Shown in pieces: positions 8,607 to 38,381 of a stretch of DNA of 38,381 bases. The translations under genes were made by a program, and so were the position numbers. Positions within the stretch are counted from its first letter, which is position 1; every line of letters begins with the position of its first letter. The notes beneath the pieces are model-generated. The model was not told where the DNA came from, did no database searches, and worked only from the letters and a program-made list of their open reading frames with translations. The DNA comes from a virus. Location: the IMG/VR virus record IMGVR_UViG_3300021356_000058, positions 1 through 38,381 of that record; one strand, given 5' to 3'.

Positions 8607-8634
8607 TCGCCATGAGCAGTACGCTGGCACCGTC

Positions 8635-8832
8635 ATGAGCATTATTTACATCAACCTGTATCAGCTTAGGCCTGCCACTGACATATCCCTGTTAACGCAA
8701 TCGGGCGGCAACCTGATCACGCAATCGGGTGACCTTATCGTTGGATCTGCCATTATCGTCTTTCTGCTAACGCAATCAAACGACAACCTGGTCACGCAAT
8801 CGGGTGACCTTATGTTTGGCATGGCGCTATGA
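8635..8832 (+). CDS. small protein built of LLTQSG/DLI repeats
   Basis: A 65-aa protein from ATG 8635. After a short head (MSIIYINLYQLRPATDIS) it consists almost entirely of two 25-residue repeats: LLTQSGGNLITQSGDLIVG and LLTQSNDNLVTQSGDLMFG. The DNA repeat period is 75 nt. The same peptide module, nearly identical at DNA level, is inserted in the tail-completion gene at 11220. No known function. Alternating polar and aliphatic residues suggest short beta-strands. The stop overlaps a TATGAT promoter-like element. Confidence 0.55.
   Translation: MSIIYINLYQLRPATDISLLTQSGGNLITQSGDLIVGSAIIVFLLTQSNDNLVTQSGDLMFGMAL
8688..8752 (+). repeat. 65-bp TQSG cassette, copy A
   Basis: This segment matches 11279-11343 at 61 of 65 positions, ungapped, and both copies are read in the same codon phase as LLTQSG...DLIVGSA. 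The surrounding genes are otherwise unrelated. Confidence 0.85.
8764..8817 (+). repeat. TQSG cassette, copy B (tandem, diverged)
   Basis: Begins CTGCTAACGCAATC and encodes LLTQSNDNLVTQSGDL. It is tandem to copy A with a 75-nt period and is clearly related, but more diverged than copy A is from the distant copy at 11279. Confidence 0.75.
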
Positions 8833-8833
8833 T
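8804..8833 (+). promoter_or_regulatory. putative promoter upstream of the 8861 gene
   Basis: GTGACC (8804-8809) and TATGAT (8828-8833; 5 of 6 to TATAAT) are spaced by 18 nt. The -10-like element overlaps the preceding stop codon and ends 27 nt before the ATG at 8861, which lacks a Shine-Dalgarno. Pattern-based. Confidence 0.33.
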
Positions 8834-8860
8834 TGAGTCATAAGTAGCGCCCCAACAACC

Positions 8861-9691
8861 ATGGCCAACATCAAGATCACTGATCTGACGGCGTATGGCA
8901 ATCCGACCAGCACCGATGTCCTGCCGATTGTGGACGTTGGCGCGGATGTCACCAAAAAAGTCAGCATCGCCGATCTGTTTAAAAACGCAGCCTCCGGTAC
9001 GGAATCACTGCCCGGCATTGCATTTGACGGCGATGCAATCACCGGCATTTACAGACCCAGCGCAAATCAGTTAGGGATTGCAACCGGCGGCTCTCAGGCG
9101 CTGTTGATTGATACAAGCGGGAATGTGACCGCCGCTGGTACATCTACTGCAGATAGCTTTATCCCAACAAGCAGTAGCGTGCCAACAAATGGCATGTATC
9201 TGTCTGCCACAAACAGCGTAGCCATCTCAACTAATGGCACCGGGAAATTGTTTGTTAATGCGGATGGAAGGGTTGGGGTTGGCACTCCGAGTCCTAGCGC
9301 GACATTTGAAGTCACTGGTGATGCAAAAATAGGCGACCCTTCTTATAAGGTCAGAATTGCAGCTAGTTCATCTACAGGAGTTATTGAATATCCTGCCGCA
9401 AGTTCGCGTAGTGTTCTCAGGACTCTAGGAGCCACACCGCTTGAGTTTGAAATCAATAGTATTCCTGTAGCCCGCATCGACAGCTCCGGCAGGCTCTTAA
9501 TTGGCACGTCATCTCAGTCTGGCGGCTCTTTGCTTCAAGTGAACGATGATCGTATTAGAATTGCATCATCAAAAACACCTGCATCTGCATCTGATACTGG
9601 CACCGCCGGAGAAGTCTGCTGGGACTCCAGTTACATCTACGTTTGTACCGCAACTGACACATGGAAGCGAGCTGCACTGAGCACTTGGTAA
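8861..9691 (+). CDS. putative fibre-like virion protein
   Basis: A 276-aa protein. The N-terminus MANIKITDLTAY...DVLPIVDVGADVTKKVSIADLF is a common attachment-type head of phage structural proteins. The middle is a repetitive beta-strand array (QLGIATGGSQALLIDTSGNVTAAG, with IDSSGRLLIGTSSQ later), as in bioinformatic 'fibre/appendage' proteins. The end, GEVCWDSSYIYVCTATDTWKR, is a recurrent C-terminal motif of such proteins. It could be a head fibre, given its position between capsid and connector genes. Adhesive role inferred. Confidence 0.6.
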   Translation: MANIKITDLTAYGNPTSTDVLPIVDVGADVTKKVSIADLFKNAASGTESLPGIAFDGDAITGIYRPSANQLGIATGGSQALLIDTSGNVTAAGTSTADSFIPTSSSVPTNGMYLSATNSVAISTNGTGKLFVNADGRVGVGTPSPSATFEVTGDAKIGDPSYKVRIAASSSTGVIEYPAASSRSVLRTLGATPLEFEINSIPVARIDSSGRLLIGTSSQSGGSLLQVNDDRIRIASSKTPASASDTGTAGEVCWDSSYIYVCTATDTWKRAALSTW

Positions 9692-9696
9692 CGACC

Positions 9697-10011
9697 ATGA
9701 GCACCACCTTTTCCTGGAACATCGCCAACCTCGAACGCTACACCGCTGACGGGCTGGTCTTCACGGTCCACTACACCGTGAACGCTGAAGACGGCACCTA
9801 TTCCATTGGTGCGTACGGCAGCCTTGGGCTCGAAGCACCCGAGCCCGACAGCATGACCCCCTTCGATAGCCTCACCGAAGAGATCGTCGTTGGCTGGGTC
9901 AAGGGCAAGTTCGGTGACGAGAAGGTTGCCGAGATCGAGGCTGCGCTGCAATCGCAACTTGATGAAAAGCACGCGCCGACGAAAGCTGCAGGTTTGCCCT
10001 GGGTTTCATGA
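9697..10011 (+). CDS. conserved phage structural-region protein of unknown function
   Basis: A 104-aa protein from ATG 9697 (an in-frame ATG at 9661 lies inside the previous gene). The pattern FSWNIANLERYTADGLVFTVHYTV...EDGTYSIGAYGS, followed by LTEEIVVGWVKGKFG and a C-terminal PW, is a widely distributed phage family with no known function, often found among head and tail genes. The stop overlaps the next ATG (ATGA). Confidence 0.6.
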   Translation: MSTTFSWNIANLERYTADGLVFTVHYTVNAEDGTYSIGAYGSLGLEAPEPDSMTPFDSLTEEIVVGWVKGKFGDEKVAEIEAALQSQLDEKHAPTKAAGLPWVS

Positions 10012-10187
10012 GCGTTCAACCCGGTCAGCACAACATCTCGCTGCAACGCAGGGCAGACTTTGATCTGCAGCTGCAGTTCAAGGATGCTGCCGGTGTTGGC
10101 ATTGATCTGACCGGCTGGACTGCTTACGCGCAGGTGTGGGATCGTGGGATCAGCGATACCGTGACTTACATCTGTAGTAGCTTCTAG
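10008..10187 (+). CDS. short, possibly truncated structural protein
   Basis: A 59-aa protein too small to be seen easily. MSVQPGQHNISLQRRADF, then LQLQFKDAAGVGIDLTGWTAYAQVWD, is a recognisable phage module that in my experience continues for about another 50-60 residues. Here it breaks off after DRGISDTVTYICSSF at a TAG. It overlaps the previous gene by ATGA, and the next gene begins 2 nt after its stop. Possibly a decayed or naturally shortened version; the intact comparison needs a homology search. Confidence 0.6.
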   Translation: MSVQPGQHNISLQRRADFDLQLQFKDAAGVGIDLTGWTAYAQVWDRGISDTVTYICSSF

Positions 10188-10189
10188 TT

Positions 10190-10612
10190 ATGGTATTCAC
10201 CGAAGACCTAAATCTGTTCTTAAGCACCGACGAGTTCGCTGTGCCGGTGACAGCTGGTAGCGTCTCAGGTAATGGCATTCTTGACATGCCATCGGAGGTT
10301 ATTGCTGATGGTGTTGTGCTGACAACGGATTACAAGCTGACGTGTGAAGCATCGAAGTTTGGCGATCTCACTTACGGTGCTGGTGTCAATGTTGATGGCA
10401 ATGCGTACACTGTTAGAAATGTTGCTCTGATTGACGATGGCGCATTTTGTGAAGTGATGCTGCAGCGGACCGCGACACCAAGCCAAGTTGCGAGCACGCC
10501 TGCATTGCTTGATGGCGATGGCGCTACGTCTGATAGCACGGTGATCATGGATGGTGGTGCGCCAGATACCGCTTACATTGATGGCAATGTTCTCGATGCA
10601 GGAGCGCCGTGA
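10190..10612 (+). CDS. putative head-tail connector protein (gpFII-like position)
   Basis: A 140-aa protein. MVFTEDLNLFLSTDEFAVPVTAG, then SGNGILDMPSEVIADGVV and DLTYGAGVNVDGNAYTVRNVALIDDG, fits short beta-barrel phage proteins resembling head-tail joining (lambda FII-type) proteins. The last 40 residues (LLDGDGATSDSTVIMDGGAP...) are low-complexity Asp/Gly-rich and look like an appended extension. It sits between the capsid region and the tail-completion gene, where connectors belong. It ends in GTGA, overlapping the next GTG start. Confidence 0.5.
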   Translation: MVFTEDLNLFLSTDEFAVPVTAGSVSGNGILDMPSEVIADGVVLTTDYKLTCEASKFGDLTYGAGVNVDGNAYTVRNVALIDDGAFCEVMLQRTATPSQVASTPALLDGDGATSDSTVIMDGGAPDTAYIDGNVLDAGAP

Positions 10613-11217
10613 CGACTTACACCAGGTTTAAGCTGCGAAATGGCACTGCTGCTGAATGGACCACAGCCAATCCGGTGCTGTTGGGGGGTGAGATCGGGGT
10701 GGAGACTGACACCCGCCGTTACAAGATCGGAGACGGCGCGACCGCATGGGCTGGCCTGAGCTACTACATCGACGGCGTGGCGATCCGTGGCCAGTGTTCA
10801 AGGATGACCGACGGCGCGATCGACATCACCACTCAAGGCACCTACGTCACCACCGGGCTGACCGCCACGTTGGATAGCAGCACCGCCTATGGCATGGTGC
10901 TTGGCACTGACGACGCATTCGGGCTCCGCAATACAAGCGGCGGCACGAAGTTGTTCAGGATCTACGGCAGCATGGATGCCACCGATGGCAACAACTCAAC
11001 CCTGGGCGTGAAGCTGGCCAAGAATGGCACAGCGATCGATGAATCCGAATGCCGCGCCTTTACCGGCAGCGGTGCTCAGGAGGCCAAGCTGGTGACCTCC
11101 TGGATGGTCGAGCTGGATGATGGTGATGAGGTATCGCTGCTGATCGCCAACCACAGCAACACCACAGACATCACGCTGAAACGTGGTCGGGTGATCGCCG
11201 TTGAGGTGCGTGCCTGA
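10609..11217 (+). CDS. fibre-like virion protein with phage-fibre N-terminal motif
   Basis: A 202-aa protein from GTG 10609, overlapping the preceding stop by 4 nt. The N-terminus RFKLRNGTAAEWTTANPVLL, then GGEIGVETDTRRYKIGDGATAW, is the well-known head of phage tail-fibre/hyaluronidase-like and tropism-determinant proteins. The C-terminal 130 residues form a beta-sandwich-like domain (TYVTTGLTATLDSSTAYG, SWMVELDDGDEVSLLIAN), resembling C1q/TNF-like trimeric heads. Probably a trimeric appendage; whether it is on the head or the tail is unclear. Confidence 0.65.
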   Translation: MTTYTRFKLRNGTAAEWTTANPVLLGGEIGVETDTRRYKIGDGATAWAGLSYYIDGVAIRGQCSRMTDGAIDITTQGTYVTTGLTATLDSSTAYGMVLGTDDAFGLRNTSGGTKLFRIYGSMDATDGNNSTLGVKLAKNGTAIDESECRAFTGSGAQEAKLVTSWMVELDDGDEVSLLIANHSNTTDITLKRGRVIAVEVRA

Positions 11218-11219
11218 TC

Positions 11220-11717
11220 ATGGCCACTAAGCGCGAACAGATTCTTGCTCAGATCGCGACGACACTCGCCGACACTTTCCTGTTAACGCAATCGGGCAAC
11301 AACCTGATCACACAATCGGGCGACCTTATCGTTGGATCTGCCACTGCCGGCGTTGGTGGTCGGGTGTATCGATCGAGGGTGACGGCTGTGGCAAGGCCTG
11401 AAAGCCCGATGATCATCATCGAACCGGTCACAGATACGGCACAGCAATTCACGTCACTACCAAAGCTTGACTGGACGATGCGCGTGAGGATCGTCGTTGT
11501 GGTGCGCTCCGGCACGCCTGACACGGATGCTGATCCGATCATTGAATCGATGCACTCAAAGCTGATGGCAGACCTGACGCTTGGTGGTTACGCGATCGAC
11601 GTACAACCTGTGCTAACAACATTCGAGTTTCTTGATGCAGATCAACCTGCAGGCGTATTCGCGAATGAATACGACATCAAGTATAGAACTGCAGTTGCAG
11701 ACTTGACCACCGGGTAA
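11220..11717 (+). CDS. tail completion/terminator-like protein carrying an inserted TQSG cassette
   Basis: A 165-aa protein. The start MATKREQILAQIATTLADT and the body VGGRVYRSRVTAVARPESP, then MIIIEPVTDTAQQ and WTMRVRIVVVVRSGTPDTDADP, match a family of small phage tail completion (gpU-like) proteins. Between them (about residues 20-44) sits a 25-residue insert, FLLTQSGNNLITQSGDLIVGSATAG, whose DNA is 94% identical to part of another gene at 8688. It precedes the tail tube gene, as expected for a tail terminator. The gpU-like function is inferred. Confidence 0.6.
   Translation: MATKREQILAQIATTLADTFLLTQSGNNLITQSGDLIVGSATAGVGGRVYRSRVTAVARPESPMIIIEPVTDTAQQFTSLPKLDWTMRVRIVVVVRSGTPDTDADPIIESMHSKLMADLTLGGYAIDVQPVLTTFEFLDADQPAGVFANEYDIKYRTAVADLTTG
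11279..11343 (+). repeat. 65-bp TQSG cassette, copy C
   Basis: Matches copy A (8688-8752) with four substitutions in 65 nt and no gap. It is inserted in frame within an otherwise canonical tail-completion gene. Confidence 0.85.
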
Positions 11718-23923: not shown

Positions 23924-25066
23924 ATGGCCGTTCTTGGCACAAATGGGATTGTCAGATTTAGGCGCGATGCGCCTAGCCCAATAATTCTCCCCCAATCCAG
24001 CTCCAGGGCTGATATTGATGTCATTTTAGTCAATAGTCAAGAGTTTTGGAATGGCGATGAAGTCAGGCTGCTGTCGCCCAACGGCCTGCCGTTTTCAGTA
24101 GACACCCTACCCGGAGGCGTTGGCTGCTACTTTGGCTCGTACTGGGATCTTGGCCCGAACAGAATTCACGTAACATCAAATGACGACGAATACTATACCG
24201 GCATTACAACTTTTTTAGTCACACAGTCCGACGATACTTTAACAACCCAAAGCGGTGACTCTATCAGCTTTATTGACGACACTACAACCTACTTTTACAA
24301 CCGTGGCACTCCGGTCAATAGCGCAACATACTACGTTTATAGAGACAGGCTGGATCGGATCAGCTTTTATGATTCGCGAGCTAAAGCGCTGAAAGGTGCG
24401 GCTGCTGACAGGGTGGACATCAAGCAGCTTGATTTTGGATACATTGTAATGTCTGCCGCTGGGACAGAAGAGTACGACAATGCGATCGCAGAGTGCGTAG
24501 CAGCCGCTGGCGAATATCGCCTTAGCGACGTCACCGACGAGGTAACGTTAGAGAGCATTTGCGATTTCCCTCCGCTATATCTTCAGCCGGTCGCTGGCAA
24601 CACGGAATACGATGATGCTGAGCTTGCGCCTCGCCACTGGGTCAATGGCTTTCCATGGGTCATTCAAGGCTGTATTGCGGAGTGGAGCATCAACCTGGAC
24701 GCTGCAGGGATTAGCACGACGGCGGTTGGGGATAAGTTTGGTGAAAACGTAAAATCGATAATTAGTGGGGGCGGTACGTTTGACTTTGATGTTGACAGGA
24801 GATCGAGCGATGACAGCTATGATGCTACCGCTTTAATGCAACTACTTTTGTTGACAGAAAAAGGATGCAAGGCAGAAGCGGAATTTTACATGATTTACGG
24901 CAGAGAGGAAAACGCCGCTCAGCCGCAGCTTCTGCCTGGTGACTTGTTTTACGAGTGCGACATATTGATAACCAACAGTGCTGTCAACACCAGGGCAGGG
25001 GAAATCATTGTCGGAACCGCGAATTTTGTCACGACAGGGCCGATTGAGCTTAGAATGGGCACATAA
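23924..25066 (+). CDS. putative tail structural protein with TQSG insert
   Basis: A 380-aa, beta-rich protein. The N-terminus MAVLGTNGIVRFRRDAPSP is followed by EFWNGDEVRLLSPNGLPF and a conserved-looking NDDEYYTG...YYVYRDRLDRISFYDSRAKAL section (about 85-165). The latter is interrupted at residues 98-115 by LVTQSDDTLTTQSGDSIS, a diverged copy of the repeat cassette. The C-terminal half (SNLDAAGISTTAVGDKFGENVK-type stretch; YMIYGREENAAQPQLLPGD) resembles parts of virion proteins of cyanophage type. The role is unknown, presumably tail-baseplate, from its position between a tube-like protein and the fibre gene. Confidence 0.6.
   Translation: MAVLGTNGIVRFRRDAPSPIILPQSSSRADIDVILVNSQEFWNGDEVRLLSPNGLPFSVDTLPGGVGCYFGSYWDLGPNRIHVTSNDDEYYTGITTFLVTQSDDTLTTQSGDSISFIDDTTTYFYNRGTPVNSATYYVYRDRLDRISFYDSRAKALKGAAADRVDIKQLDFGYIVMSAAGTEEYDNAIAECVAAAGEYRLSDVTDEVTLESICDFPPLYLQPVAGNTEYDDAELAPRHWVNGFPWVIQGCIAEWSINLDAAGISTTAVGDKFGENVKSIISGGGTFDFDVDRRSSDDSYDATALMQLLLLTEKGCKAEAEFYMIYGREENAAQPQLLPGDLFYECDILITNSAVNTRAGEIIVGTANFVTTGPIELRMGT
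24215..24268 (+). repeat. TQSG cassette, copy D (protein-level)
   Basis: Encodes LVTQSDDTLTTQSGDSIS, clearly the same peptide repeat as at 8688, 8764 and 11279, but with mostly different codons. It is therefore an older copy or an independent acquisition. It sits within the structural gene in frame. Confidence 0.65.
25026..25056 (+). promoter_or_regulatory. putative promoter upstream of the large fibre gene
   Basis: TTGTCA (25026-25031; 5 of 6 to TTGACA) and TAGAAT (25051-25056; 5 of 6 to TATAAT) are spaced by 19 nt, 34 nt before the GTG start at 25091. Both lie in the end of the preceding gene. Pattern-based. Confidence 0.4.
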
Positions 25067-38188: not shown

Positions 38189-38381
38189 TTCGACCTCCTG
38201 CGACAATGCGGGCTGGGAGTGCCGTTGCCGTTGCCGTCGCCGTAGCCGTAGCCGTAGCCGTCGCCGTAGCCGTTGCCGTCGCCGTCGCCGTTGCCGTCGC
38301 CGTTGCCGTCGCCGTCGCCGTAGCCGTCGCCGTCGCCGTAGCCGTTGCCGTCGCCGTAGCCGCAGCCGCAGCGGTTGCCGT
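38185..38381 (-). CDS. partial gene encoding Gly-(Asn/Asp/Tyr) repeats
   Basis: A leftward reading frame with no stop from the right edge (38381) down to TGA at 38185. The repeats (38221-38376) encode GNGDGYG-type alternating Gly with Asn, Asp or Tyr; the end is NGTPSPHCRRRSK. The 5' part and start lie outside the window. It is coupled to the next gene by a 4-nt GTGA overlap, as the other cluster genes are coupled. That supports its being a real protein rather than a simple microsatellite. Confidence 0.6.
   Translation of the reverse strand, partial: GNRCGCGYGDGNGYGDGDGYGDGDGNGDGNGDGDGNGYGDGYGYGYGDGNGNGTPSPHCRRRSK
38221..38381. repeat. (GCCGTN)n hexamer repeat
   Basis: About 26 consecutive hexamers on the plus strand in which only the sixth base varies (T, C or A in the regular GCCGTN units, never G). 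The three hexamers nearest the edge deviate (GCCGCA, GCCGCA, GCGGTT). The repeat continues to the window end. On the minus strand this is a codon pair: GGC followed by AAC, GAC or TAC. Confidence 0.9.

Follow-up and report, generated by a model that had tools for sequence, protein, structure and literature searches.

A short peptide module in the tail terminator gene of an uncultured cyanophage-like virus, probably copied in frame from a small gene type

A tail terminator gene carries a 65-bp segment that is probably a copy of a short exchangeable phage peptide module, pasted by illegitimate recombination from the type of cassette that stands first in a small gene upstream. The peptide is about 20 residues long (LxTQxGDxLxTQSGDxL) and is shared by about 20 host genes that are otherwise unrelated and belong mostly to uncultured phages. 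The stretch analysed (the window) comprises the 38,381 bases of an IMG/VR virus record, and all evidence taken from it derives from one metagenomic contig. The record includes a siphovirus structural gene cluster encoding terminase, portal, head protein, tail terminator, tape measure and endolysin. The nearest GenBank phages for the tail terminator protein are the Synechococcus phages S-CBS1, S-LBS1 and S-CBS3, and the source is an uncultured cyanophage-like virus. At the right end of the record, positions 38196-38381 form a run of six-base GCCGTN repeats.

The features discussed below are as follows.

8635-8832, + strand: small gene, 65 amino acids, two tandem TQSG cassettes; mosaic, of the donor lineage; two-cassette homologues in L084/L085 and L087
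8686-8751, + strand: cassette 1 of the small gene, SLLTQSGGNLITQSGDLIVGSA, donor type
8761-8826, + strand: cassette 2 of the small gene, FLLTQSNDNLVTQSGDLMFGMA, older tandem copy
11220-11717, + strand: tail terminator gene, probable recipient of the cassette; PHROG 4204, T5 p142 / lambda gpU fold
11273-11276, + strand: CACT, 4 bp, left direct repeat at the insert
11277-11341, + strand: inserted 65-bp segment (69 bp and 23 residues with the extra CACT), missing from the 79 closest spanning homologues
11342-11345, + strand: CACT, 4 bp, right direct repeat at the insert
23924-25066, + strand: third cassette-bearing gene, in the tail gene cluster
24200-24277, + strand: older 78-bp, 26-residue insert, GITTFLVTQSDDTLTTQSGDSISFID, present in L088 and L103, missing from L089 and 24 other homologous loci

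The insert in the tail terminator gene

The segments at 8688-8752 and 11279-11343 are equal at 61 of 65 bases, ungapped and in frame, a value given in the first-pass annotation and obtained again on recomputation. The two copies share their phase and read LLTQSG..NLITQSGDLIVGSA. In a whole-record comparison the match pairs 8680-8763 with 11271-11343 (73 bp at 90%, E 1.3e-24). The diverged tandem copy that had been placed at 8764 was also found (8764-8819, 86% over 56 bp), and the distant pair is indeed more alike than the tandem pair, with 92% versus 77% identity over 66 bp. A further cassette at 24209-24274, within gene 23924-25066, had been overlooked. Slippage or tandem expansion was rejected as the source of the tail copy, which is single and lies 2.6 kb from its donor.

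One possibility is that the two segments are the template repeat and the variable repeat of a diversity-generating retroelement. This would explain why one phage has two short segments that are nearly identical, and an Mtd_N-type N-terminal domain is present in the product of gene 10609. However, the substitutions extend beyond the adenines of one copy (C/T and T/C), both copies lie within coding genes, and the variable copy would have to be in the tail terminator. In addition, no reverse transcriptase was detected among the window proteins scanned, in a record that may be incomplete. The probability of this explanation is next to negligible.

The product of 11220-11717 matches the tail terminator family PHROG 4204 with an E-value of 5.5e-33, and the best Foldseek matches of its model are T5 p142, lambda gpU and the R4C terminator. 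Sequence family and predicted fold both point to a gpU-like siphophage tail terminator. There are 449 relatives of this protein in viral contigs, and the best 80 were inspected. All but one of these match from residue 1 to residue 163-165 with a span of 420-426 bp, and therefore the insert is missing from all 79 of the best homologues spanning this position. The 80th relative, L066, starts within the insert site and is uninformative on this point. A DNA alignment with 24 relatives contains a single gap of 69 bp, which corresponds to 23 residues and corrects the 25 reported earlier. Apart from this insert the gene is a normal member of its family, as the first-pass annotation had proposed. With the insert removed, there are 31 synonymous and 3 non-synonymous differences between it and the empty relative L006 (dS 0.37, dN 0.010), indicating strong purifying selection.

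The boundaries of the insert are well defined. BLAST similarity to the empty relatives L004-L008 stops at 11276 and restarts at 11342, and the two flanks belong to the same gene, with about 92% identity to empty relatives. The sequence CACT is present once at the empty site and on both sides of the insert in the window. The 65-bp core is not a multiple of three, and the frame is kept only with the four repeated bases. In the AlphaFold model the insert falls within residues 21-61, which have a pLDDT below 50 and lie between a helix (4-18) and a strand (64-76). This predicted position is compatible with a loop, and the model gives no structure for the insert itself.

Two explanations that would deprive the insert of its meaning as a recent copy can be weighed against these data. 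The first is that the small-gene repeat was joined into the tail gene as an artefact of assembly or amplification, as might be suspected where a near-copy of an upstream sequence is seen in a single metagenomic contig and near-identical records may be missing from the searches. An artefact of this kind is nevertheless very unlikely, because the flanks continue the same gene and the insert is in frame and differs from all other copies compared, including the window's own. Moreover, an independent cassette of a second gene is seen in three contigs. The second is that the tail terminator ancestrally contained the cassette and all relatives lost it, an idea to which the old and variable cassettes at one loop of minor tail protein L lend some support. 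Loss on this scale would have to extend to 79 of 79 spanning homologues, and a DNA identity of 92% to the small gene is far above that expected for an ancient copy, which makes an ancestral cassette highly improbable.

The small gene lineage and the route of copying

The small gene most likely extends over 8635-8832 and encodes 65 amino acids. Its relatives in L084/L085 and L087 have two cassettes in the same order and yield dN/dS values of 0.22-0.28, and a relative in L124 has one cassette. Within this lineage, cassette 1 is the closest match to the tail copy, with identities of 92% for the window's own cassette, 91% for that of L085 and 83% for that of L087. Since the two-cassette gene is present in L084/L085 and L087 and the tail insert is seen nowhere else, the small-gene type is the source of the copy and the tail gene its recipient. 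An F codon of L084 is retained in the tail copy at a position where the window's own small gene has S. The tail copy may be older than this change from F to S, or it may have been taken from a relative. Insert and donor differ by a dS of 0.12, a value based on just two synonymous changes, which is lower than the dS between the host gene and the empty L006; the insertion therefore seems to postdate that split.

The small gene is itself a mosaic, because its first 10 or so codons match another gene family (L011) and the sequence from 8676 matches L084. By region, 8620-8664 corresponds to L011 (91%) and 8676-9051 to L084 (91%). The junction, between 8620 and 8676, fuses an L011-like start codon region to an L084-like block. 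Further downstream, a gene at 10009-10187 with the start MSVQPGQHNISLQRRADF appears to be truncated, having about 60 codons versus about 156 amino acids in L087.

We favour a mechanism in which cassette 1 of the small-gene type would have been copied into the tail terminator gene by short-patch illegitimate recombination. Perhaps this occurred by template switching, or by capture of a fragment at a staggered break, the filling of which would leave the 4-bp CACT repeat. The insertion would have been in frame by chance, and its survival would be owed to its position in a protein loop. Similar events, mostly older, may have produced the insert of gene 23924-25066 and the recurrent loop and C-terminal cassettes in some 20 other host families. 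The junctions of the tail insert share little with the donor (GACA and CA). We infer that illegitimate short-patch copying is the simplest route, and a single fresh event does not discriminate between it and a rare enzyme-driven insertion, which would fit as well.

The peptide in other phage genes

There are 27 homologous loci for gene 23924-25066, and 25 of them lack the insert, including L089, which is 89% identical. The ends of this insert show no clean duplication, and in the AlphaFold model of the product it lies in a low-confidence stretch (56-129). It is independent of the tail terminator insert.

Other cassettes were sought with a degenerate DNA pattern for TQxxDxLxTQxGD, which itself fixes part of the motif. 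There are at least 118 matching stretches in viral contigs versus six in 257 Gb of prokaryote genomes. The motif lies within seven residues of the C-terminus in three of these six, and at least one of the six, L232, is probably a chance match. The cassettes of L230, L233 and L234, from Opitutae, Oscillospiraceae and Roseomonas assemblies, are of the TQxGD form and end 4-7 residues from the C-terminus. The consensus of the module is (F/L)LxTQ(S/A/G)xDxLxTQSGDxL, consisting of two 8-residue units. As the first-pass annotation had led one to look for, cassettes with the same peptide are present in many other phage genes, which include those for minor tail protein L, for small proteins with the cassette at their C-termini, and others.

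When the cassettes were masked, 103 host proteins clustered into 23 families, in 13 of which the cassette is within 12 residues of the C-terminus. Because a few of the singletons could be chance matches, we speak of about 20 host families. In two families, the relatives of gene 23924 and minor tail protein L (so named from GenBank matches), the cassette occupies one fixed loop and empty relatives exist. Many relatives of minor tail protein L have nothing in this loop, whereas in others it holds TQSGD, TESGD, TEDG, LLLEDG or YWxxGY peptides. A YVVxxYWxxGY insert in this loop (L265, L275, L278, L281 and L286) resembles the N-terminus, MAYVVTGYWNEGYT, of other members of the minor tail protein L family (L086 and L218). 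Repeats of the LLLEDG type occur there in L274 (several units), L310 and L255, and they and the TQSG cassette are probably sister types.

Among 109 cassettes a single fresh transfer between genes is evident, and recurrent movement is therefore deduced from the distribution. Convergent origin of such very short repeats could explain some of the approximately 20 families. An exact DNA search of viral contigs with a 29-bp core gave no match. Likewise, GenBank phages gave no match for the small gene, gene 23924, a marine relative of the latter or another small cassette gene, in BLAST searches whose low-complexity filter may hide short repeats. The cassette matched none of the PHROG families with a useful E-value, solved structures gave 7-residue matches only and not the two-unit motif, and a literature search for the peptide strings, including the TEDG and LLLEDG types, returned nothing relevant in a phage context.

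The cassettes are conserved at the level of the peptide only. In a 26-sequence alignment TQ, TQ and GD are invariant, as is partly built in by the search pattern. Among 48 cassette clusters, however, all four T codons are used, and identity at the four-fold sites of T, T and G is 0.276 versus 0.265 expected. Distant cassette pairs have a pS of 0.87 and a pN of 0.19 over the core, which was picked by motif so that the low pN is partly built in. Three window cassettes that were folded form no DNA hairpin beyond that of shuffled sequence (folding z-scores of -0.4 to 0.2). Together, the random synonymous sites and the lack of a hairpin favour a retained peptide over a DNA element that a transposase recognises.

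These data bear on the possibility that the segment is a small non-autonomous mobile DNA element, MITE-like or similar to a Rickettsia palindromic element, with a 4-bp target-site duplication and a frame that is open by chance. The clean 65-bp insert with CACT on each side, the presence of several copies in the record and the insertion into unrelated genes would all be in keeping with such an element. However, the older insertion in gene 23924 lacks the clean duplication seen at the one fresh insertion, every window copy is in a coding frame, and unrelated cassettes are alike in peptide but not at synonymous sites. Terminal inverted repeats of the transposon or MITE kind are lacking as well, as there is neither a stable hairpin nor an inverted repeat of at least 20 nt in the segment. 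A mobile DNA element is thus quite unlikely. The small element moving in frame that had been envisaged survives as recent in-frame copying and as one peptide shared by many genes, while slippage and a DNA element with mobility of its own are not supported.

Under the preferred reading, a copied peptide module, the two units probably adopt a strand-turn-strand form; we infer this beta structure, as the insert in the AlphaFold model has very low confidence. The module may be kept for a function beyond mere tolerance, and surface display and a docking or assembly tag are guesses at what this might be.

Relation to known coding elements

Rickettsia palindromic elements (RPEs) are short, reside in frame in unrelated protein genes and add a peptide to the product. 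They are palindromic and conserved as DNA. The TQSG cassette resembles them in its in-frame insertion into unrelated genes, but it is shorter, lacks a hairpin and conserved synonymous sites, and is found in phage genes. The Ig-like domains of tailed phages are optional in-frame modules of structural proteins that are swapped between unrelated genes, and each has about 80-100 residues and folds on its own. The swapping is of the same in-frame kind, whereas the TQSG module has just about 20 residues. The TEDG and LLLEDG repeats use the same minor tail protein L loop and a two-unit pattern (LxTExGDxLxTExGD or LLLEDGxxLLLEDG). Their consensus is not that of the TQSG cassette, and they are probably sister types within one wider class.

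PARCELs are coding repeats of about 25 residues for which a patchy distribution, horizontal transfer and intragenomic shuffling have been inferred, and which are described as palindromic, tandemly arrayed, amphipathic and tied to membrane proteins of cellular microbes (PMC2996958). The TQSG cassette differs in being mostly a single two-unit cassette, in having no palindrome and in residing in phage genes. What sets the cassette apart from the known coding elements is its size, the lack of any signature at the DNA level and its placement at fixed loops of virion proteins.

A bolder proposal, which we consider tentative and on balance unlikely, is that uncultured phages hold a pool of interchangeable micro-modules of about 20 residues (TQSGD, TEDG/LLLEDG and YWxxGY). 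A dedicated or strongly biased process would carry these in frame from one structural gene to another, and they would serve as a common virion display or docking tag. The domain shuffling known from phages concerns folded domains. In the present case the unit exchanged is about 20 residues long, and one copying event is recent enough to reveal the donor type, the recipient, the boundaries and the frame. This suggests that phages trade very short protein modules besides whole domains, and it makes testable both the origin of new loops in virion proteins and the repeated filling of the minor tail protein L loop with similar peptides.
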